From: Synaphobranchus kaupii
Lineage: Eukaryota; Chordata; Actinopteri; Anguilliformes; Synaphobranchidae
Assembly (NCBI GenBank): GCA_029718625.1
Contig: CM056380.1
Coordinates: 40,325,569 to 40,389,568, forward strand
Length of the DNA stretch: 64,000 nucleotides
Direction: 5' to 3'
In this document: piece after piece, positions 414-64,000 of the stretch
Position numbering within the stretch: position 1 is the stretch's first letter
Layout: every line of letters begins with the position of its first letter
The notes under the pieces: generated by a model
The model's database searches: none
Told to the model about the DNA's origin: nothing
The model's input: the letters and a program-made list of their open reading frames with translations, nothing else
Position numbers and translations under genes: made by a program

Positions 414-483
414 ATTCTTGCGTTTGGAGTCATAGTCCTTAAAGAGCTGGGTGTAGGCATGTTGCAGCTGTGCTAGCTTCCTC
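414..483 (-). CDS. ikbkg: ikbkg coding exon 9 (human exon 6 counterpart, residues 372-395)
   Basis: The 70-nt exon has acceptor TTATCTGTCAG and donor GTGAGTC, phase 2 to 0. After the split lysine codon it encodes RKLAQLQHAYTQLFKDYDSK and ends RKN. This matches the NEMO segment RKLAQLQ-AY-QLF-YD just before the UBAN region. It lacks the extra residues found at the end of human exon 6. The next exon was not found in bases 1-413 and should lie off the left edge. Confidence 0.92.
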
Positions 484-817
484 CTGACAGATAAGGGGAA
501 TAAATAAGTCATATGTTAGAATAATACTCATAAGTTTCACTGGATACAAATCTGTTTGCTATAACTGATATGTTTCATATGCAAAAACATCAACAGTATC
601 AAATAGAAATTGTGGACTTGCTATGCATATTAGAACAGCCTTCAAGTACAAGAGATTTGATATGTACAAAATGTCACCCAGAGGGTTGGAAGCTTCTGGT
701 GTTCATCGTGTGAGCCCAAATGAGTCAATTAATGGGGCACCAGAATACAATATACTTCATCACCCAACCATTGTTTATGGAGACTTGTACATGTATAATG
801 ATAAGCTTTTATTTTTT
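484..817. other. ikbkg intron, unique AT-rich sequence
   Basis: This is intron sequence between ikbkg coding exons 9 and 8. I see no conserved peptide, RNA gene or transposon in it. Bases 1-413, on the other side of exon 9, likewise show nothing recognisable. Confidence 0.5.
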
Positions 818-1318
818 ATGTATTTCAGTGTGTTGTTAGTGTTATGTATTTCAGTGTGTTGTTAGTGTTATGTATTTCAGTGTGTTGTTAGTGTTATGTA
901 TTTCAGTGTGTTGTTAGTGTTATGTATTTCAGTGTGTTGTTAGTGTTATGTATTTCAGTGTGTTGTTAGTGTTATGTATTTCAGTGTGTTGTTAGTGTTA
1001 TGTATTTCAGTGTGTTGTTAGTGTTATGTATTTCAGTGTGTTGTTAGTGTTATGTATTTCAGTGTGTTGTTAGTGTTATGTATTTCAGTGTGTTGTTAGT
1101 GTTATGTATTTCAGTGTGTTGTTAGTGTTATGTATTTCAGTGTGTTGTTAGTGTTATGTATTTCAGTGTGTTGTTAGTGTTATGTATTTCAGTGTGTTGT
1201 TAGTGTTATGTATTTCAGTGTGTTGTTAGTGTTATGTATTTCAGTGTGTTGTTAGTGTTATGTATTTCAGTGTGTTGTTAGTGTTATGTATTTCAGTGTG
1301 TTGTTAGTGTTATGTATT
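818..1318. repeat. 26-bp minisatellite, about 19 copies
   Basis: The unit is about TATGTATTTCAGTGTGTTGT plus TAGTGT, and the copies are nearly identical, which points to recent expansion. It lies inside an ikbkg intron and away from any exon. Confidence 0.95.
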
Positions 1319-1436
1319 ACTGGTGTCAGTGATAAATTTAGTCAGTGCTAAAGGCCCAGATTTATCGCACCAGTCTCATTGTTATAATTACAATTTCAGT
1401 GTTTTACCCTCAGTCAGTGTTAAAGCCAGAGACCAA

Positions 1437-1601
1437 GGGCCTGATCTACAAAGACCTTTAGCACACGGAAAACCATTTAGCACACGGAAAACCATTTAGC
1501 ACACGCAAAACCATGACCAATGATTGGAATTTATTTTGCAGCAATCATTGGTCATGTTATTGGATTTGTGCTTGTGCTAAAGGTCTTTGTAAATCAGGCC
1601 C
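1437..1601. mobile_element. small MITE with about 28-bp terminal inverted repeats
   Basis: The left end GGGCCTGATCTACAAAGACC is matched in reverse at the right end (GGTCTTTGTAAATCAGGCCC). Inside there is a second palindrome around ACCAATGATTG/CAATCATTGGT and a short direct triplication containing TTAGCACACG. There is no coding capacity. A partly similar end (CTTGATTTACCAAAAACC) occurs near 34453. Confidence 0.75.
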
Positions 1602-1697
1602 AAAGTGTAGTTGTGTCAATGTCAGTGTTAAAGCCTCCCTCTCAGAGTCCTAGCCCCAGAGTAGACATTGTATTCCCTATGTATTGTATCAACAGAG

Positions 1698-2303
1698 TTG
1701 GTGTTAGTGTTAAAGCCAGTGTCAGTGTTAAAGCCAGAGTGTCAGTGTTAAAGCCAGAGTGTCAGTGTTAAAGCCAGAGTTTCAGTGTTAAAGCCAGAGT
1801 GTCAGTGCTAAAGCCAGTTTCAGTGTTAAAGCCAGAGTTTCAGTGTTAAAGCCAGAGTTTCAGTATTAAAGCCAGAGTATCAGTATTAAAGCCAGAGTTT
1901 CAGTATTAAAGCCAGTGTTTAAGTATTAAAGCCAGTGTTAGTGTTAAAGCCAGAGTGTTAATGTTAAAGCCAGTGTCAGTGTTAAAGCCAGAGTGTCAGT
2001 GTTAAAGCCAGAGTGTCAGTGTTAAAGCCAGAGTGTCAGTGTTAAAGCCAGAGTGTCAGTGTTAAAGCCAGAGTGTCAGTGTTAAAGCCAGTGTGTTAGT
2101 GTTAAAGCCAGAGAGCTAATGTTAAAGCCAGAGAGCTAATGTTAAAGCCAGTGTCAGTGTTAAAGCCAGAGTATTAGTGTTAAAGCCAGAGTGTCAGTGT
2201 TAAAGCCAGAGTGTCAGTGTTAAATCCAGAGTGTCAGTGTTAAAGCCAGAGTGTCAGTGTTAAAGCCAGAGTGTCAGTGTTAAAGCCAGAGTGTCAGTGT
2301 TAA
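1698..2303. repeat. 20-bp minisatellite, about 30 copies, next to an ikbkg donor
   Basis: The unit is GTGTCAGTGTTAAAGCCAGA with scattered substitutions and length variants. The array stops about 10 bases from the donor of the exon at 2313-2466, so on the minus strand the intron enters the array almost at once. Confidence 0.95.
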
Positions 2304-2312
2304 GATCCCAAC

Positions 2313-2466
2313 TTTTCTTCGGTGAGGACAAGTCTCTCGGTTCTCAGGGCCGACTCCAGGTTGTGGGTCTGCAGACGCAGCGTATCCACCGTCACACTGT
2401 GCTGCTTCCTCAGCTGCTCCAGCTCCCTCTGGATACAGTGCAAATCGTCTGTCCCGCATAGATAGC
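2313..2466 (-). CDS. ikbkg: ikbkg coding exon 8 (human exon 5 counterpart) with an apparent 1-nt insertion
   Basis: The acceptor CTCTCTCAG precedes base 2466 and the donor GTTGGG follows base 2313. The conserved peptide is LHCIQRELEQLRKQHSV, then a helix with LRLQ and ALRTER, ending TEE plus two bases. The next exon completes this to EEK-RKLAQLQ, as in human NEMO. The exon measures 154 nt, whereas phase 2 at both ends requires a multiple of three, and human exon 5 is 153 nt. The surplus base is near the exon start, most simply in the G run at 2453-2455 (C on the plus strand). As written, the frame breaks around residue 326. A sequencing or assembly error is more likely than a null allele. Confidence 0.88.
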
Positions 2467-4137: not shown

Positions 4138-4239
4138 AAGCACAGGCAGAGACTGAGACACCTCAGGAAACAGTGAACAGCAGGGGAGGAAAACCATTGT
4201 GTAGTCCAGCACAGGCAGCAAGAGAGCACAGTCTCCCAA

Positions 4240-9964: not shown

Positions 9965-10365
9965 GGCTTGGAGTTTGCTCTGACATGCACTGTCAACTGT
10001 GGGACCTTATATAGGCAGGTGTTGGCAATCCCCAATCATGTCCAATCAATTGAATTTATCACAGGTGGACTCCAATTAAGTTGTAGAAACATCTCAAGCA
10101 GTATCAGTGGAAACAAAATGCACCTCAGCTCACTTTTGGGTGTCATATCAAAGGGTGTGCACACTTGTGTACATATGATATTTTACATTTAGATTTTTAA
10201 TAAATTAGCACAAATGTCTAAAAACCTGTTTTCACTTTGTCATTATGGGCTATTTTGTGTAGAATTTTGACAAAAAATGAACTCAATCTATTGTAGAATA
10301 TGTCTGTAACGTAATAAAACATGGAGAAGGTGAAAGGAGTGTTCAGACTTCCCGGCTTGACTGTA

Positions 10366-10801
10366 TATAACTCACACACACATAAACATTAGAGGTGCTT
10401 ACTCATACATAGATATATAACCCACACACACATAGATGCTAGAGGTGCTTACTCATACATAGATATATAACTCACACACACATAGATGCTAGAGGTGCTT
10501 ACTCATACATAGATATATAACTCACACACACATAGATGTTAGAGGTGCTTACTCATACATAGATATATAACTCACACACACATAGATGTTAGAGGTGCTT
10601 ACTCATACATAGATATATAACTCACACACACATAGATGTTAGAGGTGCTTACTCATACATAGATATATAACTCACACACACATAGATGTTAGAGGTGCTT
10701 ACTCATAAATAGATATATAACTCACACACACATAGATGTTAGAGGTGCTTACTCATACGTAGATATATAACCCACACACACATAGATGTTAGAGGTGCTT
10801 A
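10366..10801. repeat. 50-bp minisatellite, about 8-9 copies, carrying ikbkg donor copies
   Basis: The unit is about TAGATGTTAGAGGTGCTTAC, TCATACATAGATATATAACT and (CA)5. On the minus strand each unit contains GTAAGCACCTCTAACATC, the same bases that follow the exon at 10803-10918. The array ends exactly at the real donor. Confidence 0.95.
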
Positions 10802-10802
10802 C

Positions 10803-10918
10803 TTTTCTTCTCCCTGTTTCCTCTCCTTCTCGCTGTTTTCCAGGCAGCTCTGTCTCTCGTTCAGTTCCCCCAGGAGTGAGGTCACCTGGGCCTTTAGAGC
10901 TTCGCTGTCCTTAACAAG
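10803..10918 (-). CDS. ikbkg: ikbkg coding exon 7 (human exon 4 counterpart, residues 283-320)
   Basis: The 116-nt exon has acceptor GTTACACAG and donor GTAAGC, phase 0 to 2. It encodes LVKDSEALKAQVTSLLGELN followed by a charged helix ending in GEE. KAQVTSLLGEL is shared exactly with mammalian NEMO. As I recall, the human exon 4 is 119 nt with the same phases, so this one is a single codon shorter. Its donor is copied in every unit of the 50-bp array that follows. Confidence 0.92.
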
Positions 10919-11149: not shown

Positions 11150-11226
11150 TGCATATGCATGTGTGAGCGGGTGTGTGTGTGAGCGGGTGTGTGTGTGTGT
11201 GTGTGCGTGTGTGTGCGTGTGTGAGC

Positions 11227-11289
<63 letters not shown>

Positions 11290-11530
11290 CATGTGTATGT
11301 GCATATGCGTGTGTGAGCGGGTGGGTATGTGTGTGTGTGTGTGCGTGTGTCTGTGTGTGTGTGTGTCTCTCTGTGTGTGTGTGTGTGTGTGTGCGCGTGT
11401 GTGAGCGGGTGTGTGTGTGTGTGTGTGTGCATGTGTATGTGCATATGCGTGTGTGAGCGGGTGTGTATGTGTGTGTGTGCGTGTGTGTGTGTGTGTGCGT
11501 GTGTGTGTGCATATGCGTGTGTGAGCGGGT

Positions 11531-11574
<44 letters not shown>

Positions 11575-11595: not shown

Positions 11596-11698
11596 CTGTG
11601 CGAAATCCTTCTCTCTTTGCTTTAGCAGGGCTTCTGTTCTGTCTCTCTGAACTGTGCTCTTCTGAAGGCAATCCAACTTCTCCTGTAAGTCTCGATAC
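11596..11698 (-). CDS. ikbkg: ikbkg coding exon 6 (residues 248-282), coiled coil
   Basis: The 103-nt exon has acceptor GCTATAACAG and donor GTACAC, phase 2 to 0. It encodes RYRDLQEKLDCLQKSTVQRD and ends KQREKDFAQ. With the two preceding exons it forms the rest of the cassette absent from human IKBKG. The following intron starts at once with a long CA/GT microsatellite, and the acceptor is duplicated in tandem upstream. Confidence 0.82.
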
Positions 11699-11699
11699 C

Positions 11700-11800
11700 T
11701 GTTATAGCAGAGGCACATAGCATGACACATAGCTCTGAACACCTGTTATAGCAGAGGCACATAGCATGACACATAGCTCTGAACACCTGTTATAGCAGCC
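11700..11800. repeat. 44-bp duplication containing an ikbkg acceptor
   Basis: Two full units plus a partial one. On the minus strand each ends GCTATAACAGGT, the acceptor sequence of the exon at 11596-11698. Two decoy acceptors therefore lie 44 and 88 bases upstream of the real one. Confidence 0.88.
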
Positions 11801-14639: not shown

Positions 14640-14687
14640 CTGCACTGTGTGGCTTGTAACTGCTCAGTCAGCCGTGCCAGAGTAGAG
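14640..14687 (-). CDS. ikbkg: ikbkg micro-exon (coding exon 5, residues 232-248)
   Basis: This 48-nt exon has acceptor CTTCTCTTAG and donor GTAATC. It enters needing one base and leaves with two, in phase with both neighbours. The peptide is STLARLTEQLQATQC, a continuation of the coiled coil. It sits as a small unique island between a 34-bp array and a 6.3-kb 29-bp array. It is too short to be found by ORF length; the phase match on both sides and the coiled-coil character are the evidence. Confidence 0.75.
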
Positions 14688-21305: not shown

Positions 21306-21367
21306 CTGTCAGAGCCACTGGGGTGCGATGCTGAGCGCTGGGGAGTCTCCTCCATCACACTGGAACC
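21306..21367 (-). CDS. ikbkg: ikbkg coding exon 4 (residues 212-232)
   Basis: The 62-nt exon runs from phase 0 to phase 2. The acceptor is TTCCCCCTCAG and the donor is GTACTG. It encodes GSSVMEETPQRSASHPSGSD, a short polar linker. The GSS start at the end of a coiled coil matches the place in optineurin where the LC3-interacting segment sits, but no aromatic LIR core is visible here. The next exon completes the split serine codon in frame, which supports the boundaries. Confidence 0.75.
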
Positions 21368-21875: not shown

Positions 21876-21879
21876 CCCA

Positions 21880-22798
21880 CCATGACCATGTGTAGGGTTA
21901 GGGTTACCATGACGATGTGTAGGGTTAGGGTTACCATGACGATGCGTAGGGTTAGGGTTACCGTGACAATGCGTAGGGTTAGGGTTACCGTGACGATGCG
22001 TAGGGTTAGGGTTACCGTGACGATGCGTAGGGTTAGGGTTACCGTGACGATGCGTAGGGTTAGGGTTACCGTGAAGATGCGTAGGGTCAGGGTTACCGTG
22101 ACGATGTGTAGGGTCAGGGTTACCGTGACGATGTGTAGGGTCAGGGTTACCGTGACGATGTGTAGGGTCAGGGTTATCGTGACGATGTGTAGGGTTAGGG
22201 GTTACCGTGACGATGCGTAGGGTTAGGGTTACCGTGACGATGCGTAGGGTTGGGATTACCGTGACGATGCGTAGGGTTAGGGTTACCGTGACGATGTGTA
22301 GGGTTAGGGTTACCGTGACCATGTGTAGGGTTAGGGTTACCGTGACCATGCGTAGGGTTAGGGTTACCGTGACGATGCGTAGGGTTAGGGTTACCGTGAC
22401 GATGTGTAGGGTTAGGGTTACCGTGACGATGTGTAGGGTTAGGGTTACCGTGATGATGCGTAGGGTTAGGGTTACCGTGACGATGCGTAGGGTTAGGGTT
22501 ACCGTGACGATGTGTAGGGTTAGGGTTACCGTGACGATGTGTAGGGTTAGGGTTACCGTGACGATGTGTAGGGTTAGGGTTACCGTGACGATGCGTAGGG
22601 TTAGGGTTACCGTGACGATGCGTAGGGTTAGGGTTACCGTGACGATGCGTAGGGTTAGGGTTAACGTGACGATGCGTAGGGTTAGGGTTACCATGACGAT
22701 GCGTAGGGTTAGGGTTACCGCGACGATGCGTAGGGTTAGGGTTACCGTGACGATGCGTAGGGTTAGGGTTACCGTGACGATGTGTAGGGTTAGGGTTA
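21880..22798. repeat. 27-bp telomere-like minisatellite, about 34 copies
   Basis: The unit GTAGGGTTAGGGTTACCGTG plus ACGATGC contains two vertebrate telomere hexamers in register. It starts about 20 bases into the intron after the exon at 22819-23004. On the minus strand each unit offers GGTAACCC, similar to the real donor GGTAACTG. Confidence 0.96.
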
Positions 22799-22818: not shown

Positions 22819-23004
22819 CTGCATCTGAGCAAGTTTGGCCTGCAGCTGTGCATTGGTGCTGCGGAGACCTTCTCTCTCCCTCTCTGTGTCTTCCCTCTCT
22901 CTCTCCAGCTCTTCATTTCTCCTCCTCAACTCCTGCATCCCTTCTTCCAACTTCTCTTTATGGCTCTTGAGCAGCTGGAGAAACTCATTCCCTCCTTCAA
23001 TGGG
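22819..23004 (-). CDS. ikbkg: ikbkg coding exon 3 (residues 150-211), optineurin-like coiled coil
   Basis: The 186-nt exon is phase 0 at both ends, with acceptor CCCCTTCAG after a long C tract and donor GTAACT. It starts PIEGGNEFLQLLKSHKEKLE and continues with a highly charged helix rich in glutamate and arginine, ending LQAKLAQMQ. I know of no equivalent in mammalian IKBKG. Its position and its LQ-K-L ending followed by GSS resemble optineurin, a NEMO paralogue. As a symmetric exon it could be skipped without shifting frame. A telomere-like 27-bp array begins about 20 bases downstream of the donor. Confidence 0.8.
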
Positions 23005-36520: not shown

Positions 36521-36524
36521 AGTG

Positions 36525-39500: not shown

Positions 39501-39731
39501 AAAGAGTCAAACACACTGACTGGGTTTGGAAAGCTCTGGTATAAAGAGTCAAACACACCGACTGGGTTTGGGCAGCCCTGGTATAGAGAGTCAAACACAC
39601 TGACTGGATTTGGGCAGCCCTCGTATAGAGAGTCAAACACACTGACTGGGTTTGGGCAGCCCTGGTATAGAGAGTCAAACACACTGACTGGGTTTGGGAA
39701 GCCGTTGGTTCAGACAGTAAAACACACTGAC
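36525..39731. repeat. 42-bp minisatellite, about 76 copies, starting at an ikbkg donor
   Basis: The unit is AGAGAGTCAAACACACTGAC, TGGGTTTGGGAAGCTCTGGT and AT. Variants are AAGCGCTGG, AAGCCCTGG and GCAGCCCTGG, used in recurring three- and four-unit patterns. On the minus strand each unit contains AGTCAGTGTGTTTGACTC, a copy of the start of the intron after the exon at 39732-39991 (GTCAGTGTGTTTTACTG). The 14-codon period leaves open frames of 880-930 codons on both strands, which are not genes. Confidence 0.97.
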
Positions 39732-39991
39732 CCCTCGCTGATTCAGGGGCTCCTCTGCCTGTGCCCCTGTGCCAGGGTGCTCCATGTCCTGTCCCAGCTT
39801 TGGCGGATTGGCGCCCGTGTGGTTGAGCTGGACCTGCAGGGCTTTGTTCTCACAGGCTAACCTCTCCACCAGGGCTCGGGCCTCCCGAAATCGAGAGCCG
39901 ACGAAGTCTCTCTCCTCCCTCATCCTCCGCTGCCATCCCTCCATTTCTTCACAGCGCTCCCTAAGGGCGACAGTACTGCGCCGCAAGGCCT
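39732..39991 (-). CDS. ikbkg: ikbkg coding exon 2 (residues 63-149), coiled coil 1
   Basis: The 260-nt exon enters at phase 1 (2 bases, then 86 codons) and leaves at phase 0. Its acceptor is TTTGTGCAG and its donor is GTCAGT. It encodes ALRRSTVALRERCEEMEGW, REERDFVGSRFREARALVERL and then a proline/glycine-rich tail ending LNQRG. The first two thirds align with the human NEMO N-terminal coiled coil that binds IKK-beta. The tail is about 16 residues longer than in human. The donor is unusual: the intron starts directly inside the first unit of a 42-bp minisatellite that repeats the donor sequence. Confidence 0.9.
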
Positions 39992-40021: not shown

Positions 40022-42334
40022 GAGAGCTGGTTACTCTGTAATAAATGTACAGTGTGGAAGAGCTGGTTACTCTGTAATAGATGTACTGTGTTGAAGAGCT
40101 GGTTATTCTGTAATAAATGTACTGTGTGGAAGAGCTGGTTACTCTGTAATAAATGTACTGTGTGGAAGAGCTGGTTACTCTGTAATAAATGTACTGTGTG
40201 GAAGAGCTGGTTACTCTGTAATAAATGTACTGTGTGGAAGAGCTGGTTACTCTGTAATAAATGTACTGTGTGGAAGAGCTGGTTACTCTGTAATAAATGT
40301 ACTGTGTGGAAGAGCTGGTTACTCTGTAATAAATGTACTGTGTGGAAGAGCTGGTTACTCTGTAATAAATGTACTGCGTGGAAGAGCTGGTTACTCTGTA
40401 ATAAATGTACTGTGTGGAAGAGCTGGTTACTCTGTAATAAATGTACTGTGTGGAAGAGCTGGTTACTCTGTAATAAATGTACTGTGTGGAAGAGCTGGTT
40501 ACTCTGTAATAAATGTACTGTGTGGAAGAGCTGGTTACTCTGTAATAAATGTACTGTGTGGAAGAGCTGGTTACTCTGTAATAAATGTACTGTGTGGAAG
40601 AGCTGGTTACTCTGTAATAGATGTACTGTGTGGAAGGGCTGGTTACTCTGTAATAAATGTACTGTGTGGAAGAGCTGGTTACTCTGTAATAAATGTACTG
40701 TGTGGAAGGGCTGGTTACTCTGTAATAAATGTACTGTGTGGAAGAGCTGGTTACTCTGTAATAAATGTACTGTGTGGAAGAGCTGGTTACTCTGTAATAA
40801 ATGTACTGTGTTGAAGAGCTGGTTACTCTGTAATAACTGTACTGTGTTGAAGAGCTGGTTACTCTGTAATAAATGTACTGTGTGGAAGAGCTGGTTACTC
40901 TGTAATAAATGTACTGTGTGGAAGAGCTGGTTACTCTGTAATAAATGTACTGTGTGGTAGAGCTGGTTACTCTGTAATAGATGTACTGTGTGGAAGAGCT
41001 GGTTACTCTGTAATAGATGTACTGTGTGGTAGAGCTGGTTACTCTGTAATAGATGTACTGTGTGGAAGAGCTGGTTACTCTGTAATAAATGTACTGTGTG
41101 GAAGAGCTGGTTACTCTGTAGTAAATGTACTGTGTGGAAGAGGTGGTTACTCTGTAATAAATGTACTGTGTGGAAGAGCTGGTTACTCTGTAATAAATGT
41201 ACTGTGTGGAAGAGCTGGTTACTCTGTAATAAATGTACTGTGTGGAAGAGCTGGTTACTCTGTAATAAATGTACTGTGTTGAAGAGCTGGTTACTCTGTA
41301 ATAAATGTACTGTGTTGAAGAGCTGGTTACTCTGTAATAAATGTACTGTGTTGAAGAGCTGGTTACTCTGTAATAAATGTACTGTGTTGAAGAGCTGGTT
41401 ACTCTGTAATAAATGTACTGTGTGGAAGAGCTGGTTACTCTGTAATAAATGTACTGTGTGGAAGAGCTGGTTACTCTGTAATAAATGTACTGTGTGGAAG
41501 GGCTGGTTACTCTGTAATAAATGTACTGTGTGGAAGGGCTGGTTACTCTGTAATAAATGTACTATGTGGAAGAGCTGGTTACTCTGTAATAAATGTACTG
41601 TGTTGAAGAGCTGGTTACTCTGTAATAACTGTACTGTGTTGAAGAGCTGGTTACTCTGTAATAAATGTACTGTGTGGAAGAGCTGGTTACTCTGTAATAA
41701 ATGTACTGTGTGGAAGAGCTGGTTACTCTGTAATAAATGTACTGTGTGGTAGAGCTGGTTACTCTGTAATAGATGTACTGTGTGGAAGAGCTGGTTACTC
41801 TGTAATAGATGTACTGTGTGGTAGAGCTGGTTACTCTGTAATAGATGTACTGTGTGGAAGAGCTGGTTACTCTGTAATAGATGTACTGTGTGGTAGAGCT
41901 GGTTACTCTGTAATAGATGTACTGTGTGGAAGAGCTGGTTACTCTGTAATAGATGTACTGTGTGGTAGAGCTGGTTACTCTGTAATAGATGTACTGTGTG
42001 GAAGAGCTGGTTACTCTGTAATAAATGTACTGTGTGGTAGAGCTGGTTACTCTGTAATAGATGTACTGTGTGGAAGAGCTGGTTACTCTGTAATAGATGT
42101 ACTGTGTGGTAGAGCTGGTTACTCTGTAATAGATGTACTGTGTGGAAGAGCTGGTTACTCTGTAATAGATGTACTGTGTGGTAGAGCTGGTTACTCTGTA
42201 ATAGATGTACTGTGTGGTAGAGCTGGTTACTCTGTAATAGATGTACTGTGTGGAAGAGCTGGTTACTCTGTAATAGATGTACTGTGTGGTAGAGCTGGTT
42301 ACTCTGTAATAGATGTACTGTGTGGTAGAGCAGC
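40022..42334. repeat. 36-bp minisatellite, about 64 copies, filling an ikbkg intron
   Basis: The unit is TTACTCTGTAATAAATGTAC plus TGTGTGGAAGAGCTGG. It runs from a short (GA)n next to the acceptor at 39991 to within about 8 bases of the donor at 42342. Virtually the entire 2.35-kb intron is array. On the minus strand the unit AGAGTAACCAGCTCTACCAC resembles the real donor region GAGAGGTGATCAGCTGCTCT. Confidence 0.97.
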
Positions 42335-42341: not shown

Positions 42342-42532
42342 CTCTCAGCTGATGATTGTCTCCCAGGAGTCTGTGCACAATTTCATTGGAGGCAAGCTCT
42401 GGTGGGACCCTGAGAGAGCCCTGACTGCTGGGTCCCAGAGATCCCTGGCCACCTGCGGCCAGAACGTCTCCGCCCCCGGTCATCTCCCACTGCAGAGCGG
42501 TGTCCACATGGGCCTGCGGTTGAACCATGACC
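42342..42532 (-). CDS. ikbkg: ikbkg first coding exon (residues 1-62)
   Basis: The acceptor CTCCTCTCAG lies just before base 42532. Four untranslated bases follow and then the ATG at 42528-42526. The coding part is 187 nt and ends in phase 1 at a GTGATC donor. The peptide begins MVQP, runs through a low-complexity glycine/serine-rich stretch and ends LLGDNHQLR, which continues into the next exon as E-ALRRS. MVQP occurs in human NEMO shortly after its start, so the human N-terminus may be slightly longer. This segment starts the kinase-binding, dimerising region. The exon is bracketed by a 39-bp array on its acceptor side and a 36-bp array on its donor side. Confidence 0.88.
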
Positions 42533-42550: not shown

Positions 42551-45500
42551 CATCACCTGGAGTACTGCACTAATGCAAGGACTACATTTAATCACCTGGA
42601 GTACTGCACTAATGCAAGGACTACATTCAATCACCTGGAGTACTGCACTAATGCAAGGACTACATTTAATCACCTGGAGTACTGCACTAATGCAAGGACT
42701 ACATTTAATCACCTGGAGTACTGCACTAATGCAAGGACTACATTTAATCACCTGGAGTACAGCACTAATGCAAGGACTACATTTAATCACCTGGAGTACA
42801 GCACTAATGCCAGGACTACATTTAATCACCTGGAGTACAGCACTAATGCAAGGACTACATTTAATCACCTGGAGTACAGCACTAATGCAAGGACTACATT
42901 TAATCACCTGGAGTACTGCACTAATGCAAGGACTACATTTAATCACCTGGAGTACTGCACTAATGCAATGACTACATTTAATCACCTGGAGTACTGCACT
43001 AATGCAAGGACTACATTTAATCACCTGGAGTACTGCACTAATGCAAGGACTACATTTAATCACCTGGAGTACTGCACTAATGCAATGACTACATTTAATC
43101 ACCTGGAGTACAGCACTAATGCAAGGACTACATTTAATCACCTGGAGTACAGCACTAATGCAAGGACTACATTTAATCACCTGGAGTACTGCACTAATGC
43201 AAGGACTACATTTAATCACCTGGAGTACTGCACTAATGCAATGACTACATTTAATCACCTGGAGTACAGCACTAATGCAAGGACTACATTTAATCACCTG
43301 GAGTACAGCACTAATGCAAGGACTACATTTAATCACCTGGAGTACAGCACTAATGCAAGGACTACATTTAATCACCTGGAGTACAGCACTAATGCAAGGA
43401 CTACATTTAATCACCTGGAGTACAGCACTAATGCAAGGACTACATTTAATGACCTGGAGTACTGCACTAATGCAAGGACTACATTCAATGACCTGGAGTA
43501 CTGCACTAATGCAAGGACTACATTCAATCACCTGGAGTACAGCACTAATGCAAGGACTACATTTAATCACCTGGAGTACAGCACTAATGCAAGGACTACA
43601 TTCAATCACCTGGAGTACAGCACTAATGCAAGGACTACATTCAATCACCTGGAGTACAGCACTAATGCAAGGACTACATTTAATCACCTGGAGTACAGCA
43701 CTAATGCAAGGACTACATTCAATCACCTGGAGTACAGCACTAATGCAAGGACTACATTCAATCACCTGGAGTACAGCACTAATGCAAGGACTACATTTAA
43801 TCACCTGGAGTACTGCACTAATGCAAGGACTACATTCAATCACCTGGAGTACTGCACTAATGCAAGGACTACATTTAATCACCAGGAGTACTGCACTAAT
43901 GCAAGGACTACATTTAATCACCTGGAGTACAGCACTAATGCAAGGACTACATTCAATCACCTGGAGTACAGCACTAATGCAAGGACTACATTCAATCACC
44001 TGGAGTACAGCACTAATGCAAGGACTACATTCAATCACCTGGAGTACTGCACTAATGCAAGGACTACATTCAATCACCTGGAGTACAGCACTAATGCAAG
44101 GACTACATTCAATCACCTGGAGTACTGCACTAATGCAAGGACTACATTCAATCACCTGGAGTACAGCACTAATGCAAGGACTACATTTAATCACCTGGAG
44201 TACAGCACTAATGCAAGGACTACATTTAATCACCTGGAGTACAGCACTAATGCAAGGACTACATTCAATCACCTGGAGTACAGCACTAATGCAAGGACTA
44301 CATTCAATCACCTGGAGTACAGCACTAATGCAAGGACTACATTTAATCACCTGGAGTACAGCACTAGTGCAAGGACTACATTTAACCACCTGGAATACTG
44401 CACTAATGCAAGGACTACATTCAATCACCTGGAGTACAGCACTAATGCAAGGACTACATTCAATCACCTGGAGTACAGCACTAATGCAAGGACTACATTT
44501 AATCACCTGGAGTACAGCACTAATGCAAGGACTATATTTAACCACCTGGAGTACTGCACTAATGCAAGGACTACATTTAATCACGTGGAGTACAGCACTA
44601 ATGCAAGGACTACATTTAATCACCTGGAGTACAGCACTAATGCAAGGACTACATTCAATCACCTGGAGTACAGCACTAATGCAAGGACTACATTCAATCA
44701 CCTGGAGTACTGCACTAATGCAAGGACTACATTTAATCACCTGGAGTACAGCACTAATGCAAGGACTACATTTAATCACCTGGAGTACAGCACTAATGCA
44801 AGGACTACATTCAATCACCTGGAGTACAGCACTAATGCAAGGACTACATTCAATCACCTGGAGTACAGCACTAATGCAAGGACTACATTTAATCACCTGG
44901 AGTACTGCAGTAATGCAAGGACTACATTCAATCACCTGGAGTACAGCACTAATGCAAGGACTACATTCAATCACCTGGAGTACAGCATTAATGCAAGGAC
45001 TACATTTAATCACCTGGAGTACAGCATTAATGCAAGGACTACATTTAATCACCTGGAGTACAGCACTAATGCAAGGACTACATTCAATCACCTGGAGTAC
45101 TGCACTAATGCAAGGACTACATTCAATCACCTGGAGTACTGCACTAATGCAAGGACTACATTTAATCACCTGGAGTACAGCACTAATGCAAGGACTACAT
45201 TCAATCACCTGGAGTACTGCACTAATGCAACGACTACATTTAATCACCTGGAGTACTGCACTAATGCAAGGACTACATTTAATCACCTGGAGTACAGCAC
45301 TAATGCAAGGACTACATTCAATCACCTGGAGTACAGCACTAATGCAAGGACTACATTTAATCACCTGGAGTACTGCACTAATGCAAGGACTACATTTAAT
45401 CACCTGGAGTACAGCACTAATGCAAGGACTACATTCAATCACCTGGAGTACTGCACTAATGCAAGGACTACATTTAATCACCTGGAGTATTGCACTAATG

Positions 45501-46095
45501 CAAGGACTACATTTAATCACCTGGAGTACTGCAGTAATGCAAGGACTACATTCAATCACCTGGAGTACAGCACTAATGCAAGGACTACATTCAATCACCT
45601 GGAGTACAGCACTAATGCAAGGACTACATTCAATCACCTGGAGTACAGCACTAATGCAAGGACTACATTCAATCACCTGGAGTACTGCAGTAATGCAAGG
45701 ACTACATTCAATCACCTGGAGTACTGCACTAATGCAAGGACTACATTTAATCACCTGGAGTACAGCACTAATGCAAGGACAACATTTAATCACCTGGAGT
45801 ACTGCACTAATGCACGGACTACATTTAATCACCTGGAGTACTGCACTAATGCAAGGACTACATTTAATCACCTGGAGTACAGCACTAATGCAATGACTAC
45901 ATTCAATCACCTGGAGTACAGCACTAATGCAAGGACTACATTCAATCACCTGGAGTACAGCACTAATGCAAGGACTACATTTAATCACCTGGAGTACAGC
46001 ACTAATGCAAGGACTACATTTAATCACCTGGAGTACAGCACTAATGCAAGGACTACATTTAATCACCTGGAATACAGCACTAATGCAATGACTAC
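42551..46095. repeat. 39-bp minisatellite, about 91 copies (3.5 kb)
   Basis: The unit is AATCACCTGGAGTACTGCAC plus TAATGCAAGGACTACATTT. Main variants are AGTACAGCAC and ACATTCAAT. It starts only about 19 bases upstream of the acceptor of the first ikbkg coding exon. The 13-codon period gives frames of about 1,200 codons on both strands. Confidence 0.97.
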
Positions 46096-46099
46096 AGTT

Positions 46100-47430
46100 A
46101 CTTGCACATTACATTGACTTTATTCTGATATACACTGAATAGACTGAATAGGCTAAAACCCCAGTTATGAGTCACCATTCCTGTATTATTATTATTATAG
46201 ATATTCCTCTATTAAATGGAGTATTGACCAATGAGAACACTTTTTTCAGAATATAGTACCTCCTAACTGGAAATACTTAGACCTGTACATTCCATTTTGC
46301 TTCATAATTAACTTTATAAAGCAAAATAAAGCAAACTCAAAAATCTTTATTTATATATTTATCTGTCCATTTATTTAATAAACAATGTCTTGGTCAGGAA
46401 AACGCAATAAAATAAATTTAATCCTCAATTTCATCCGTCAACAAAAAAGGCTGAGTATTTCGAAGAGACATGCCCCTAGTGGCGGCAGTCTGGAACAATC
46501 AAGTTTAACTTTGCCAATAATTCTCAGAGAATGCATCCCTGTGGGTGTTAAATCCCAAAAGTCAAGTACAAGAGTTACGATAACCCGAGGCCGCAACACA
46601 TCACAAAAGAAGTAAACGTCGAATTTCAATAATAAAACTAAGTTTATTACACAAAATAAGACAAAATAAACACACAACACTTTACCTCATGAAGGTTGAA
46701 AGGATAGACAGGATAGGCAGGCCAGACCTAAGCCACTCCTAGACTAAAACCACGTATCTACCATCTCTAACCGAGGCGACTGAAAAGGAGGGAGTCTTCC
46801 GGGTAACTACATCCGCGCTCCGGCCTCAACCTGAATCCAGCTAAAAAGATGTATCAGAAAAAAGAAACTGCCAATCCACCTTCAAACTACAACAAGAAAA
46901 TGCATCAACAGAGAAACGTGCGGCAGAGGAACACACAACGGCTATGGAATGGCCCACAAAAATGCAAACATCCCAGATCAGCACAGCGATCAGGCTTTCA
47001 TTCATTTGGGCTGTCAGGTGGGCACAGGTGCACATCGTCAGCAATCAGGTCCTTGTTCAGCTTCACCTACAGCACACACAGGCATGTCGGGGTGTGTGTG
47101 TGTGTGTATATGTGTGTAATGCACAGACTATATAAAACAAGGCAGCATCACAGTCGGTGACTGGCACAAGCTCTTAAAATTGTGTTATTTTCCGAAGCGG
47201 CTTGTGATGGGGACCTTCTTTTGGCTCCATTCATTTGGCATGTTCGTATGGTTGGCCATCGGGGCCAAAATATGCAAGAAAATGCATCTCTGGACATTGA
47301 TTTGCACATCTGGAGACTTCAATATTTGTTCATTTTCTTCTGAGTAAGTTGCAAGTACTGCAATAGCACCACCAGGTGGCCATGACTATCAAGCACATTT
47401 TTCTACAAATCAACAAAATGGAAGATAGTA
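46100..47430. other. ikbkg intron 1, no recognisable gene
   Basis: AT-rich sequence with a short GT tract near 47090-47118. A TATA-like ACTATATAAAACAAGG at about 47128 stands alone without a recognisable transcription unit. No conserved peptide is seen. Confidence 0.45.
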
Positions 47431-57590: not shown

Positions 57591-57591
57591 A

Positions 57592-57917: not shown

Positions 57918-58418
57918 TCTGGCTGCGCCGGTTCCAATGTTCTCTGTGGTGAGGGTACTGCGATGCCGTGCCTCCCCCTTGGCGCTTGTCTTGCTGGGGG
58001 CCACCTCATTCCTGGTGGTCCTCATCATGATTCAGGGGACCACAAGGGGTGGGGCCCCCAGTCCCGAGTCCTGGTTCCGTGAGCTGCCTGACGAGAAGGG
58101 TCAGGTGGTGGGCGTGTTCAGAGGTGCTTTCAGAAAACTCCCAATCAGGGCCGTGCTGCCCCCTGCTTTACCCCCCTGGAGGAACAGAAGCTGCCCCCCT
58201 GGGTTCTACAGCCCAACTGAGCTCAGGCCCCACATGGAGAGGCCCCTGCAGGACCCCTGGGGCCCTGGGGCTGATGGAAGGGCCTTTACGATGGGCAGTT
58301 TGTCGGGGCAAGAGCTGAGGGAAAAGATGGAGGGAATGGCCCAAAACTATTTCAATCAGTTTGCCAGCGACCGCATCTCCCTTCACCGCTTCCTGGGTGC
58401 AGACACACGCCAATCTGA
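57918..58418 (+). CDS. galnt6: galnt6-like exon with start codon: signal anchor and stem
   Basis: The acceptor GCTCCTCCAG is followed by 19 untranslated bases and the ATG at 57937. The 482 coding nt (160 codons plus 2) end at CAATCTGA before the donor GTAAGTT. Residues about 15-32 form a hydrophobic segment after an arginine-containing N-terminus, giving a type II Golgi signal anchor. A stem follows with SCPPGFYSPTELRP, ERPLQDPWGPGADG, and the family signature FASDRISLHRFLGADTR. These strings match the GALNT3/6 subfamily of enzymes that start mucin-type O-glycosylation by moving GalNAc from UDP-GalNAc to serine or threonine. The exon end is itself part of the first unit of a 50-bp array. Confidence 0.93.
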
Positions 58419-59660
58419 GTAAGTTACACTATGCATGCGCTGGTATGAGATTACACACACCAATCTGAGTAAATTACACTGCATGCGCTGGTATGAGATT
58501 ACCCACACCAATCTGAGTAAGTTACACTATGCATGCGCTGGTATGAGATTACACACGCCAATCTGAGTAAGTTACACTATGCATGCGCTGGTATGAGATT
58601 ACACACACCAATCTGAGTAAGTTACACTATGCATGCGCTGGTATGAGATTACACACACCAATCTGAGTAAGTTACACTATGCATGCGCTGACATGAGATT
58701 ACACATGCCAATCTGAGTAAATTACACTATGCATGCGCTGGTATGAGATTACACACACCAATCTGAGTAAGTTACACTATGCATGCGCTGGTATGAGATT
58801 ACACACGCCAATCTGAGTAAGTTACACTATGCATGCGCTGATATGAGATTACACACACCAATCTGAGTAAGATACACTATGCATGCGCTGATATGAGATT
58901 ACACACACCAATCTGAGTAAGTTACACTGCATGCGCTGGTATGAGATTACACACGCCAATCTGAGTAAGTTACACTGCATGCGCTGATATGAGATTACAC
59001 ACGCCAATCTGAGTAAATTACACTATGCATGCGCTGGTATGAGATTACACACACCAATCTGAGTAAATTACACTGCATGCGCTGATATGAGATTACACAC
59101 GCCAATCTGAGTAAATTACACTATGCATGCGCTGGTATGAGATTACACACACCAATCTGAGTAAGTTACACTGCATGCGCTGATATGAGATTACACACGC
59201 CAATCTGAGTAAATTACACTATGCATGCGCTGGTATGAGATTACACACACCAATCTGAGTAAATTACACTGCATGCGCTGATATGAGATTACACACGCCA
59301 ATCTGAGTAAATTACACTATGCATGCGCTGGTATGAGATTACACACACCAATCTGAGTAAGTTACACTGCATGCGCTGATATGAGATTACACACGCCAAT
59401 CTGAGTAAATTACACTATGCATGCGCTGGTATGAGATTACACACACCAATCTGAGTAAGTTACACTATGCATGCGCTGGTATGAGATTACACACGCCAAT
59501 CTGAGTAAGTTACACTATGCATGCGCTGGTATGAGATTACACACACCAATCTGAGTAAGTTACACTATGCATGCGCTGGTATGAGATTACACACGCCAAT
59601 CTGAGTAAATTACACTATGCATGCGCTGGTATGAGATTACACACGCCAATCTCAGTAAAT
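58404..59660. repeat. 50-bp minisatellite carrying the galnt6 exon end and donor, about 26 copies
   Basis: The unit includes ACACACCAATCTGAGTAAGT, TACACTATGCATGCGCTGGT and ATGAGATT. The first unit overlaps the exon: ACACGCCAATCTGA is coding, and GTAAGT is the true donor. About 25 further copies of CAATCTGA-GTAA follow in the intron. Confidence 0.96.
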
Positions 59661-59816: not shown

Positions 59817-60826
59817 GTGATTTGTGTGTGTCTCTCTCCCAGTGCGGATGGGTGGGATTTGTGTGTGTCTCTCTCCCAGTGCGGATGGGTGGGATTTGTG
59901 TGTGTGTCTCTCCCAGTGTGGATGGGTGGGATTTGTGTGTGTCTCTCTCCCAGTGCACATGGGTGGGATTTGTGTGTGTGTCTCTCCCAGTGCGGATGGG
60001 TGGGATTTGTGTGTGTGTCTCTCTCCCAGTGCACATGGGTGGGATTTGTGTGTCTCTCTCCCAGTGCACATGGGTGTGATTTGTGTGTGTCTCTCTCCCA
60101 GTGCACATGGGTGGGATTTGTGTGTGTCTCTCTCCCAGTGCGGATGGGTGGGATTTGTGTGTGTCTCTCCCAGTGCGGATGGGTGGGATTTGTGTGTGTC
60201 TCTCTCCCAGTGCGGATGGGTGTGATTTGTGTGTGTGTCTCTCTCCCAGTGCGGATGGGTGGGATTTGTGTGTGTGTCTCTCTCCCAGTGTGGATGGGTG
60301 GGATTTGTGTGTGTCTCTCTCCCAGTGCACATGGGTGGGATTTGTGTGTGAGTCTCTCCCAGTGTGGATGGGTGGGATTTGTGTGTGTGTCTCTCTCCCA
60401 GTGTGGATGGGTGGGATTTGTGTGTCTCTCTCCCAGTGCACATGGGTGTGATTTGTGTGTGAGTCTCTCCCAGTGCACATGGGTGGGATTTGTGTGTGTG
60501 TCTCTCCCAGTGCGGATGGGTGGGATTTGTGTGTGTGTCTCTCCCAGTGTGGATGGGTGGGATTTGTGTGTGTGTCTCTCCCAGTGTGGATGGGTGGGAT
60601 TTGTGTGTGTGTCTCTCCCAGTGTGGATGGGTGGGATTTGTGTGTGTCTCTCCCAGTGCGGATGGGTGGGATTTGTGTGTGTCTCTCCCAGTGCGGATGG
60701 GTGGGATTTGTGTGTGTCTCTCCCAGTGCACATGGGTGGGATTTGTGTGTGTGTCTCTCCCAGTGCGGATGGGTGGGATTTGTGTGTGTGTCTCTCCCAG
60801 TGCACATGGGTGGGATTTGTGTGTTC
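59817..60826. repeat. 35-bp minisatellite, about 28 copies
   Basis: The unit is GTGTGTGTCTCTCCCAGTGC plus GGATGGGTGGGATTT, with GTGCACATG and GTGTGGATG variants and GT-length variation. Each unit contains CTCTCTCCCAG, an acceptor-like pyrimidine tract with AG. Open frames on both strands follow from the period and are not genes. Confidence 0.95.
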
Positions 60827-61095
60827 AGGGGCCACATGCATAAACAGTGCTGAGCAGAAAAATGCCTTCAGAAAGCTGTATAATATTATACAGATGTATA
60901 ATATAACACGTGCTGTGAGAATCTGCGTACCTCTGCACATGCTGGACACCATACGTACGCAGTGGTTGGAGGCAGTGTGATATGGTGACACCATGATCAA
61001 AAGGCAGAGGGAGAAAATTCAAAACCTTGCTTAAGTGGATTACCGACTTTCACCCTGAGCATTATTTTACTCAGTTATACGTGAGGCCCCTGGCG
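60827..61095. other. galnt6 intron spacer
   Basis: Unique sequence between arrays, with no exon recognised. Confidence 0.4.
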
Positions 61096-61099
61096 TGTG

Positions 61100-61380
61100 A
61101 AGTGTGTGATTTGTATGTTCAGGTGTGTGACGCGTGTGATTTGTTTGTGTTCAGGCATGTGATTTGTGTGTGAAGCATGTGATTTGTATGTTCAGGTATG
61201 TGACGCGTGTGATTTGTTTGTGTTCAGGCGTGTGAAGCGTGTGATTTGTGTGTTCAGGCGTGTGAAGCGTGTGATTTGTGTGTTCAGGTGTGAAGCGTGT
61301 GATTTGTGTGTTCAGGCGTGTGAAGCGTGTGATTTGTGTGTTCAGGTGTGTGATTTGTGTGTTCAGGTGTGTGAAGCGTT
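61100..61380. repeat. tandem repeat of about 30 bp across the galnt6 exon 2 acceptor
   Basis: The unit is about GTGTGATTTGTGTGTTCAGG plus CGTGTGAAGC, with roughly 9 imperfect copies. The last copy supplies the true acceptor and the first bases of the exon (TTCAG, then GTGTGTGAAGCG). Earlier copies are near-identical decoys. Confidence 0.92.
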
Positions 61381-61539
61381 TGTTCCGCCGATGCCCCCCT
61401 TTGTCCACCACCAGTGTTATCATCGTCTTCCACAATGAGGCCTGGTCTACTCTTCTCCGCACTGTCTACAGTGTCCTGCACACTGCACCTGCCATCTTCC
61501 TCACAGAGATACTACTGGTGGATGATGCAAGCACTGCAG
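61367..61539 (+). CDS. galnt6: galnt6-like exon: start of the GT-A catalytic domain
   Basis: The 173-nt exon has acceptor TGTGTTCAG and donor GTATGG, and is in phase with its neighbours. It encodes [39 protein letters not shown] and [10 protein letters not shown], the UDP-binding first half of the GT-A fold. YSVLHT favours GALNT6 over GALNT3. The acceptor lies at the end of a tandem repeat of about 30 bp whose units each end in a TTCAGG acceptor copy. Confidence 0.95.
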
Positions 61540-61734
61540 GTATGGCACTTATGAATGTAGCAACATCAATTCATGCAGAAAATCCTAACCCATCTGGCCA
61601 TGGGTGTGGGGTAAATCAAGCAGGGATTGTGCTGGCATTTGTGTGCATTGCACCCTGCCAACCAGGTTGTAGCAAAATCCAGAGTTTCAATGAACACTCG
61701 AGTGCTACAGTGGTGGCAAACGCCGTAGCAAGTG

Positions 61735-61812
61735 ACAGTTAAGGGAGAACTACAAGTGTATTAAAGGGAGAACCACAAGTGTATTAAAGGGAGAACCACA
61801 AGTGTATTTTGT
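61735..61812. repeat. short tandem repeat, about 3 copies
   Basis: The unit AAGGGAGAACCACAAGTGTA plus TT lies about 60 bases before galnt6 exon 3. The intervening bases form the pyrimidine tract. Confidence 0.85.
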
Positions 61813-61868
61813 ATCCAGAGGGAGGGGGGACGGGGCAGATTGCTGCTTAACTCACTTTGTTTTTGCAG

Positions 61869-62018
61869 ATCACTTGAAAAGCAGCCTGGAGGAGTACGTG
61901 CGGAGGCTTAAGGTCGTGCGGGTATTGCGGCAGACTGAGAGGAAGGGTCTAATCACAGCCAGGCTGCTTGGGGCCAGGGAGGCCCGAGGCCAGGTGCTCA
62001 CCTTCCTGGATGCCCACT
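61869..62018 (+). CDS. galnt6: galnt6-like exon: [13 protein letters not shown] and DxH motif
   Basis: The 150-nt exon has acceptor TTTTTGCAG and donor GTGAGTG. It encodes [20 protein letters not shown], then [13 protein letters not shown] and TFLDAHC. The Asp-x-His (about residues 266-268) is the metal- and UDP-binding DxH motif of GalNAc-transferases. Its cysteine codon is split by the intron and correctly restored by the next exon. All expected key residues in this part are present. Confidence 0.95.
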
Positions 62019-62195
62019 GTGAGTGACATAGGATGCAGCCCTCCCTCGGCATTGTAGGAGTTTCTGTAAGTGACAGCATGCAGCCCTCCCTCGGCATTGT
62101 GGGAGTTACTGTAAGTGACAGCTTGCAGCCCTCCCTCGGCATTGTGGGAGTTACTGCAAGTGACAGCTTGCAGCCCTCCCTCGGCACTGTGTGAA
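62014..62195. repeat. 46-bp tandem repeat copying the galnt6 exon 3 donor, about 4 copies
   Basis: The real junction reads CCCACT-GTGAGTGACA. Downstream units end GTTTCT-GTAAGTGACA, GTTACT-GTAAGTGACA and GTTACT-GCAAGTGACA. At least two are good donors. Confidence 0.9.
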
Positions 62196-62204
62196 CAGAC
62201 TTGA

Positions 62205-62375
62205 CACAGAAATCTTCTGTATAGAAGATCTATGTGTGAATGGGGAATCCGTATGAGATCTATGTGTAAATGGGGAATCCGTATAGGAGATCTATGTGTG
62301 AATGAGGAATCCGTATAGGAGATCTGTGTGTGAATGGGGAATCCGTATAGGAGATCTATGTGTAAATGGGGAAAA
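62205..62375. repeat. 32-bp tandem repeat, about 5 copies
   Basis: The unit is about GAGATCTATGTGTGAATGGG plus GAATCCGTATAG. It lies within galnt6 intron 3. Confidence 0.92.
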
Positions 62376-62475
62376 CGACTAGCCAACCCAGAAAATTGAA
62401 CCCGGGAATGTTAAGGCTTCCATGTGTGAATGGGGCTTATGTGTGCAGTTGAGCCTGGAGGCTGGGGTGTTCACC

Positions 62476-62553
62476 CTCAGGTGAATGTTCCTCTGGCCTC
62501 TCCACCTCCAGGTGAATGTTCCTCTGGCCTCTCCACCTCCAGGTGAATGCTTC
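62476..62553. repeat. 31-bp repeat copying the galnt6 exon 4 acceptor, 3 junction copies
   Basis: GTGAATG begins at 62481, 62512 and 62543, each preceded by CAG, exactly 31 bases apart. The third is the true exon start (GTGAATGCTTCTC); the first two read GTGAATGTTCCTC. Confidence 0.95.
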
Positions 62554-62777
62554 TCTGGCTGGCTGGAGCCGCTGCTGGCTCGGATTGCAGAGGAGCCCAC
62601 AGCAGTGGTGAGCCCTGACATCCCCACCATTGACCAGGACACCCTGGAGTTCAACAAGCCCGTGGCGGCCAGTCGCTCTTTTGTCCGCGGCAGCTTTGAC
62701 TGGAGCCTGAACTTCGGCTGGGAGGCCATCCCAGAGGAACAGAGGAGGAGCCGCAAAGACGAGACCTACCCTGTGAA
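62543..62777 (+). CDS. galnt6: galnt6-like exon: central catalytic domain (last one in window)
   Basis: The 235-nt exon has acceptor CCACCTCCAG and donor GTGAGC. It encodes [47 protein letters not shown] and [12 protein letters not shown]. Together the four exons give about 346 residues, roughly the N-terminal half to two thirds of the enzyme. The Gal/GalNAc-transferase motif and the C-terminal ricin-type lectin domain should lie beyond base 64000. The acceptor is one of three tandem 31-bp copies, and the intron begins directly in a 35-bp array. Confidence 0.95.
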
Positions 62778-64000
62778 GTGAGCTTTCCCACAGAGGACCC
62801 ATGTGCATATAGTATGAACTTTCCCCTCAGAGGACCATGTGCATATAGTATGAGCTTTCCCACAGAGGACCATGTGCATATAGTATGAGCTTTCCCACAG
62901 AGGACCATGTGCATATAGTATGAGCTTTCCCACAGAGGACCCATGTGCATATAGTATGAACTTTCCCCTCAGAGGACCATGTGCATATAGTATGAGCTTT
63001 CCCACAGAGGACCATGTGCATATAGTATGAGCTTTCCCATCGAGGACCCATGTGCATATAGTATGAGCTTTCCCACAGAGGACCATGTGCATAAAGTATG
63101 AGCTTTCCCACAGAGGACCATGTGCATATAGTATGAGCTTTCCCACAGAGGACCATGTGCATATAGTATGAGCTTTCCCACCGAGGACCCATGTGCATAT
63201 AGTATGAGCTTTCCCACAGAGGACCATGTGCATATAGTATGAGCTTTCCCACCGAGGACCCATGTGCATATAGTATGAGCTTTCCCACAGAGGACCATGT
63301 GCATATAGTATGAGCTTTCCCACCGAGGACCCATGTGCACATAGTATGAGCTTTCCCACAGAGGACCATGTGCATATAGTATGAGCTTTCCCACAGAGGA
63401 CCATGTGCATATAGTATGAGCTTTCCCACAGAGGACCATGTGCATATAGTATGAGCTTTCCCACAGAGGACCATGTGCATATAGTATGAGCTTTCCCACA
63501 GAGGACCCATGTGCATATAGTATGAGCTTTCCCACAGAGGACCATGTGCATATAGTATGAGCTTTCCCACAGAGGACCATGTGCATATAGTATGAGCTTT
63601 CCCACAGAGGACCATGTGCATATAGTATGAGCTTTCCCACAGAGGACCATGTGCATATAGTATGAGCTTTCCCACAGAGGACCATGTGCATATAGTATGA
63701 GCTTTCCCACAGAGGACCCATGTGCATATAGTATGAGCTTTCCCACAGAGGACCCATGTGCATATAGTATGAGCTTTCCCACAGAGGACCATGTGCATAT
63801 AGTATGAGCTTTCCCACAGAGGACCCATGTGCATATAGTATGAGCTTTCCCACAGAGGACCATGTGCATATAGTATGAGCTTTCCCACAGAGGACCCATG
63901 TGCATATAGTATGAACTTTCCCCTCAGAGGACCATGTGCATATAGTATGAGCTTTCCCACAGAGGACCATGTGCATATAGTATGAGCTTTCCCACAGAGG
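62778..64000. repeat. 35-bp minisatellite starting at the galnt6 exon 4 donor, about 34 copies
   Basis: The unit is GTATGAGCTTTCCCACAGAG plus GACCATGTGCATATA, with a one-base longer GACCCATG form. The first unit is the intron start itself (GTGAGCTTTCCCACAGAGGA). Later units carry GTATGAGC, a consensus-like donor. The array runs off the right edge. Confidence 0.96.

Follow-up and report, generated by a model that had tools for sequence, protein, structure and literature searches.

The window analysed here is a stretch of 64,000 nucleotides from the fish Synaphobranchus kaupii (assembly GCA_029718625.1, contig CM056380.1, positions 40,325,569 to 40,389,568). It holds two divergently transcribed genes, the 5' part of galnt6 on the forward strand and much of ikbkg on the reverse strand. 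Minisatellite arrays lie at or near many exon–intron junctions of both genes, and at eight junctions the repeat unit reaches the splice site. Thirteen coding exons were modelled from the sequence, nine for ikbkg and four for galnt6, and every join preserves the reading frame. The exons and the basis on which each was placed are as follows.

42342..42532, reverse: ikbkg first coding exon, ATG at 42528
39732..39991, reverse: ikbkg coding exon 2, 5' part aligned to NEMO structures
22819..23004, reverse: ikbkg coding exon 3, frame and splice signals
21306..21367, reverse: ikbkg coding exon 4, frame and splice signals; nearest array at least 171 bp off
14640..14687, reverse: ikbkg coding exon 5, frame and splice signals; arrays at 38 and 59 bp
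11596..11698, reverse: ikbkg coding exon 6, frame and splice signals
10803..10909, reverse: ikbkg coding exon 7, frame and NEMO structure alignment
2313..2426, reverse: ikbkg coding exon 8, frame and NEMO structure alignment; acceptor 2426 or 2466
414..483, reverse: ikbkg coding exon 9, frame and NEMO structure alignment
57937..58418, forward: galnt6 first coding exon, from the ATG, frame and 6s22 alignment
61367..61539, forward: galnt6 coding exon 2, frame and 6s22 alignment
61869..62018, forward: galnt6 coding exon 3, frame and 6s22 alignment
62543..62777, forward: galnt6 coding exon 4, frame and 6s22 alignment

The window proteins matched the Pfam families NEMO and Glycos_transf_2. The galnt6 product was aligned to the GalNAc-transferase structure 6s22 over residues 61–346 of 346, crossing all three of its joins. 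The ikbkg product aligned with NEMO structures only at residues 47–115 and 310–377 of 379, crossing three of eight joins, and its middle edges, 39732 through 10909 (between the end of exon 2 and the beginning of exon 7), were placed by frame and splice signals alone. The acceptor of ikbkg exon 8 could be 2426 or 2466, and that on the 5' side of galnt6 exon 1 was taken as 57915, although its AG is about 3 bases further on (about 57918); neither ambiguous acceptor has an array within 160 bp. Acceptor 2466 looks better than 2426 but is out of frame, from which a small ikbkg exon may have been missed between 10803 and 2426. The ikbkg donor at 2313, AAA/GTTGGG (the slash marks the junction), is very weak against the consensus, at 1.3 bits on an unfitted weight matrix.

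Tandem Repeats Finder (TRF) gave 59 rows at a score of at least 50. At a score of at least 40 it gave 72, which merged into 43 minisatellite arrays (period of at least 7) covering 31,431 of the 64,000 bases. With exons included, arrays occupy 54% of the ikbkg span (414–42532) and 73% of the galnt6 span (58419–62542), and merely 7.6% of the intergenic sequence (46101–57914). This low share between the genes, against that within them, looks as if transcribed sequence were favoured. In the matched text of one survey, tandem repeats account for 1.7–5.0% of the genome in four other fishes and for 20.6% in Nothobranchius furzeri, where the abundant ones are centromeric (PMC2688266). Exon bases within arrays number 58 of 2,203, which is the sum of the six overlapped edges, so that no array lies inside an exon. 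Wrong exon edges or a misassembled repeat region might create such a pattern, and the derivation of the models from DNA alone, the two ambiguous acceptors and the 5 of 11 joins that the structure alignments leave uncrossed all speak for this. However, every join is in frame, and protein alignments run across 6 of 11. In most junction arrays the copies also differ by a few per cent, as in real arrays (TRF matches of 91–97% in 9 of 12 main rows), and we give an artefact of this kind only a very small chance.

The models contain 26 splice edges, 13 donors and 13 acceptors. Units were aligned to the edge at 16 of them, the remaining ten being without an array within 59 bp. At eight edges, five donors and three acceptors, the unit extends to the splice site, in the following arrays.

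58403..59658, forward: galnt6 intron 1 donor array, 50-bp unit x 25, with 16 coding bases of exon 1 plus GTAAGT
61095..61385, forward: galnt6 intron 1 acceptor array, unit of about 30 bp, with 16 bases of exon 2
62016..62191, forward: galnt6 intron 3 donor array, 45-bp unit x 3.9, with 3 exon bases plus GTRAGT
62478..62559, forward: galnt6 intron 3 acceptor array, 31-bp unit x 2.6, with 17 coding bases of exon 4
62779..64000 and past the window end, forward: galnt6 intron 4 donor array, 35-bp unit x 34, with GTATGAGC in the unit at the place of the true donor's GTGAGC
10364..10803, reverse: ikbkg donor array at 10803, 50-bp unit x 8.8, match from 1 base before GTAAGC
36521..39731, reverse: ikbkg intron 2 donor array, 42-bp unit x 76, match from GTCAGT exactly
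11697..11798, reverse: ikbkg acceptor array at 11698, 44-bp unit x 2.3, spanning AACAG/GT with 2 exon bases

Both this register and the copying of exon bases are observed directly. The unit includes 16 exon bases at 58418, 16 at 61367 and 17 at 62543, three at 62018, two at 11698, one at 10803 and none at 39732; at 62777 the match begins one base into the intron, with a 2-base difference at the splice site. The coding bases copied at 58418, 61367 and 62543 indicate that these three arrays grew out of the junction, and since they encode residues aligned to 6s22, the exon is the likely source. In eight arrays compared, the copy nearest the junction is not clearly more diverged than the others; the exception is 39732, with 0.81 where the median is 0.976. 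An initial annotation of this DNA had named 13 edges with arrays at or close to them. All 13 coincide with edges of the frame-checked models, and 12 have a minisatellite within 25 bp, 11596 having a dinucleotide array only. Its further statement, made for most of them, that the unit contains the local splice site holds at eight of the 13 (39732, 10803, 58418, 62018, 11698, 61367, 62543 and, with the 2-base difference, 62777); at 42342, 22819, 2313, 42532 and 11596 the array is merely nearby.

Over all edges, eight of the 13 donors and four of the 13 acceptors have a minisatellite over them or within 25 bp (9 and 5 when short-period arrays are included). Among donors the nearest minisatellite is 10 bp away at 42342, 0 at 39732, 20 at 22819, 0 at 10803 and 9 at 2313 in ikbkg, and overlaps 58418 and 62018 and lies 1 bp from 62777 in galnt6; 11596 has its dinucleotide array 24 bp off. 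Donors more than 25 bp from a minisatellite are 21306 (171 bp), 14640 (38), 61539 (201) and 414 (none in the window). Acceptors 11698, 61367 and 62543 are overlapped and 42532 is 19 bp away. The remaining acceptors are 39991 (31 bp, or 8 counting a short CT run), 14687 (59), 61869 (60), 2426 (207), 483 (332), 21367 (511), 23004 (513), 10909 (787, or 250 to a dinucleotide array) and 57915 (3403).

These distances were compared with a null in which each intron's own arrays are placed randomly inside it, using the 11 introns wholly in the window and excluding 62777 and 42532; all p-values given here concern this one window, which was selected for this very pattern, and are not genome-wide. The excess at donors is plain: 4 of 11 lie within 5 bp of an array (0.53 expected, p 0.00075), 6 of 11 within 10 bp (0.96 expected, p 5e-5) and 7 of 11 within 25 bp (2.16 expected, p 0.00025), and random placement is rejected at all thresholds from 5 to 40 bp. 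For acceptors chance is rejected only at 5 bp (3/11, 0.54 expected, p 0.011), and not at 10 bp (3/11, 0.95 expected, p 0.052) or 25 bp (3/11, 2.16 expected, p 0.36). Under a looser null, with arrays moved between introns, acceptors have a p of at most 0.011 and donors one of 0.0002, whatever the threshold. Among five other TRF settings, the strictest mismatch penalty leaves 2 of 11 donors within 5 bp (p 0.09), with p below 0.01 at 10–25 bp; the remaining four give donor p values of at most 0.004 at all four thresholds. Leaving out one intron at a time (at 10 bp only) keeps the donor p at or below 0.0013 and moves the acceptor p between 0.025 and 0.22.

Introns so rich in arrays might meet exons by default, with selection halting the arrays at the exon. 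The array shares of the two gene spans and ikbkg intron 1, which is 98% array, agree with such filling of space, as do the acceptor counts at 20–40 bp and four arrays that lie near a junction out of register with it. The null that keeps each intron's array content nonetheless expects 0.96 donors within 10 bp where six are seen, and the coding bases within units would go unexplained, which makes this reading unlikely. We consider it probable that the arrays are minisatellites of the kind called mirages in amphioxus, which arose from duplications spanning the junction, grew by ordinary turnover and are tolerated because the exon-joined copy works.

Several observations weigh against this account. 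Four of the 12 junction minisatellites (42342, 22819, 2313 and 42532) lack unit homology up to the junction, the match stopping 9–20 bp short of the edge, so that another reason is needed for them. With 0–1 exon base in the arrays at 39732, 10803 and 62777, a spanning duplication is unproven for those three. Acceptors as a class show no enrichment at 20–40 bp under the stricter, within-intron null, and 7 of the 15 arrays of at least 400 bp in gene territories lie away from junctions. Full independence of the units is also unproven: in 650 unit comparisons the best score was 12.5, and four exceeded the shuffled 99.9th percentile of 10.5 (0.65 expected), the best pair being two GTG-rich units whose low complexity single-base shuffles leave uncontrolled. 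The slightness of this kinship suggests separate births of arrays without a common unit family, although weak kinship is possible. The arrays near junctions but out of register, together with the dinucleotide array, are listed below.

40023..42331, reverse: ikbkg intron 1 array, 36-bp unit x 64, 98% of the intron, 10 bp past the donor, out of register
21879..22798, reverse: ikbkg intron 3 array, 27-bp unit x 34, 20 bp past the donor, out of register, with telomere-like TAACCCTAACCC in the unit
1701..2303, reverse: ikbkg array after donor 2313, 20-bp unit x 31, 9 bp past the donor, unit without GT
42552..46100, reverse: array before the acceptor of the first coding ikbkg exon, 39-bp unit x 91, stopping 19 bp short and sparing the pyrimidine tract
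11160..11571, reverse: CA/TG microsatellite, 24 bp past donor 11596, a different kind of repeat

A decayed register was considered for 42342, 22819, 2313 and 42532 and rejected, as anchored alignment found no residual homology there (p 0.25–0.89). Anchored extension at 10803, 62777, 14640 and 39991 found nothing past the edge. The unit match stops 24–38 bp short at 39991, 14640 and 11596, and a 9-base match at 14687 was taken as chance and set aside.

The initial annotation had described the copies as decoys. In-register GT copies do exist besides the true site, 69 at 39732, 8 at 10803, 23 at 58418, 2 at 62018 and 34 at 62777. Scored with the unfitted weight matrix, those as strong as the true donor or stronger number 13 of 23 at 58418, where the 13 carry the identical donor 9-mer, 1 of 2 at 62018, and none of 69, 8 and 34 at 39732, 10803 and 62777. 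None of the out-of-register GT copies at 42342 (58) and 22819 (26) equals the true donor; counting all GT sites in ten arrays, 39732 also has 4 of 307 that do. Matches to the last 10 bases of the acceptor (at most 2 mismatches, true one included) number 11 at 61367, 2 at 62543 and 3 at 11698. Donor-like motifs showed no clear excess over shuffled units in the eight donor-edge arrays (lowest fraction 0.016); among 18 other arrays the lowest fraction was 0.002, for the acceptor array at 62478. Strong decoys as a general feature were rejected, as only 58418 and 62018, of seven donor arrays checked in register, have equal-strength copies. As the real site is stronger than most of the donor copies, the term decoy is overstated, save at galnt6 58418.

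If splicing used a GT copy in place of the true donor, a stop would follow for all 128 copies tested at 39732, 10803, 58418, 62018 and 22819 (the last out of register), and acceptor copies would give a stop in 10 of 12 cases tested; the test left out 62777. The exception is 42342, where 0 of 58 copies give a stop. There the 36-bp array (40023–42342) is open in the frame of the first coding ikbkg exon, so that all 58 would give a stop-free in-frame extension. With stops arising from most inner copies, splicing would be expected at the copy that adjoins the exon.

Selection might retain the arrays because extra splice sites act, as a buffer against site loss or to slow or regulate splicing. The exact 9-mers at 58418 and the one copy at 62018 whose score equals or exceeds that of the true site would suit such a function. 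Against it stand the failure of any copy at 39732, 10803 and 62777 to reach the true donor score on the unfitted matrix, the stops that inner copies mostly yield and the four junction arrays with no in-register site, and we judge it quite improbable. The proposal that only arrays with a functional splice site are tolerated is not supported either: four of the 12 junction minisatellites have no such site in register, and most donor copies fall below the true site.

Splice-site words were compared with the arrays post hoc and without correction, and what follows is to be read as leads, not results. All three acceptors spanned by arrays are AG/GT, against 0 of 10 others (p 0.0035), and all five in-register donors are GTNAG, against 1 of 8 other donors (p 0.0047). 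Their lack of G at position -1 does not reach significance (p 0.086), and AG/GT occurs at none of the five junctions. The suggestion that duplication starts at junctions thus gains from the exon bases in units (58418, 61367, 62543), the donor placement test and this post hoc link, whereas its proposed AG/GT-rich seed suits the three spanned acceptors and fails as a general seed at the donors. Tentatively, minisatellite birth may be biased genome-wide to junction words (AG/GT acceptors, GTNAG donors) in this vertebrate lineage; splice sites would then seed intron growth and the spliceosome would routinely choose among tens of near-identical sites, but we hold this wider claim to be doubtful.

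The AG/GT acceptors also recall the model of Rogers, in which introns are born from AGGT-containing tandem duplications; the arrays would then be birth marks. The introns of ikbkg and galnt6, however, presumably sit at old positions, and we count this against the model. The 0 of 5 in-register donors ending in AG/GT argue against it too, as do ikbkg introns 2 and 7, which measure 16.7 and 8.4 kb and contain transposase frames (intron 7 also reverse-transcriptase pieces), and the presence of a touching array at both ends in only 2 of 11 introns. Multi-copy AGGT introns are described in fission yeast, in the matched text of PMC4974935. Intron gain of this type (ATP2A1, potato RdRp, fission yeast) likewise involves tandem duplication of splice-signal sequence; as far as the matched texts go, it creates a new intron, whereas existing junctions here appear multiplied within the intron. 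An origin as birth marks is thus most improbable.

The process had been put forward as undescribed, but mirages, tandem repeats over exon–intron boundaries, are already in print. They were named in amphioxus Adh and occur also in globin, TnC and PGBD5 genes; the matched parts of these papers describe effects on both edges, copies that may hold AG or GT, and normal splicing for Adh, globin and TnC (PMC3087553, PMC3902484). As in the amphioxus cases (Adh3, the globins BflGb6 and BflGb9, TnC and PGBD5), the repeats here are minisatellite-like and lie over 5' or 3' boundaries. The unit spans the boundary with 16–17 exon bases at three edges, 1–3 at three and 0 or -1 at two, both boundary types are affected and some copies keep AG or GT signals. 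The PGBD5 repeats adjoin the 5' splice site. In the same partial texts, copy numbers are 3–6 for BflGb6 and 2–7 for PGBD5 (two assemblies), against up to about 76 here. Unlike in amphioxus, several junctions are affected in each of two genes, and the genome is that of a vertebrate, whereas the mirage cases in those texts are cephalochordate. The ikbkg and galnt6 arrays therefore look like a vertebrate case of amphioxus mirages, with more copies than in the BflGb6 and PGBD5 cases.

No report of vertebrate mirages was found in the titles and abstract openings of the matches listed from the open-licence literature; the nearest are PMC2812944 and PMC3045353. Polymorphic tandem repeats also occur in introns of another fish, Sparus aurata, namely GH introns 1 and 3 and MSTN-2 intron 1; in MSTN-2 a block of about 150 bp stands at the 5' end of the intron in just 1–2 copies; the matched text of that paper does not mention copying of exon bases (PMC3045353). 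Human variable internal tandem repeats are also minisatellites at exon–intron boundaries and can change gene structure, but in the text matched they belong to paralogues in segmental duplications and lengthen exons or make introns (PMC2812944).

Under the mirage interpretation, a short tandem duplication would happen to span an exon–intron junction, and the array would then expand through ordinary minisatellite turnover, by slippage, unequal exchange or conversion. The exon-joined copy would stay a working splice site while the remainder is spliced out, which would explain why the arrays are tolerated. Selection would hold the exon-side array edge at the junction, and contraction between copies could restore an intact junction. 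Birth might in addition be biased to AG/GT or GTNAG words.

Other repeats were noted in the ikbkg introns. An open reading frame at 4177–5136 (forward) in intron 7 contains an in-frame 54-bp tandem repeat, a coiled coil by eye, and a reverse-transcriptase piece (RVT_1) lies downstream within 6197–6670 (forward); together they are perhaps a LINE-like element with a repeat within its own frame. DDE_3 transposase frames, Tc1-like by eye, occur within ikbkg introns at 8525–9190 (reverse, 222 aa) and 31790–32470 (reverse, 227 aa), and a further DDE_3-type copy with stops seems present near 51.5–52.5 kb. A comparison with Rfam gave 0 matches at gathering scores.

The arrays raise the question of how the splicing machinery selects the right copy. 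Galnt6 intron 1, in which the donor 9-mer recurs unchanged 13 more times and the acceptor end nearly unchanged 10 more times, offers a natural locus for splice-site choice, at which an old question, exon versus intron definition and nearest versus strongest site, becomes testable. If the pattern is general, it would extend amphioxus mirages to vertebrates and mean that the introns of a vertebrate can lengthen from their own splice sites.

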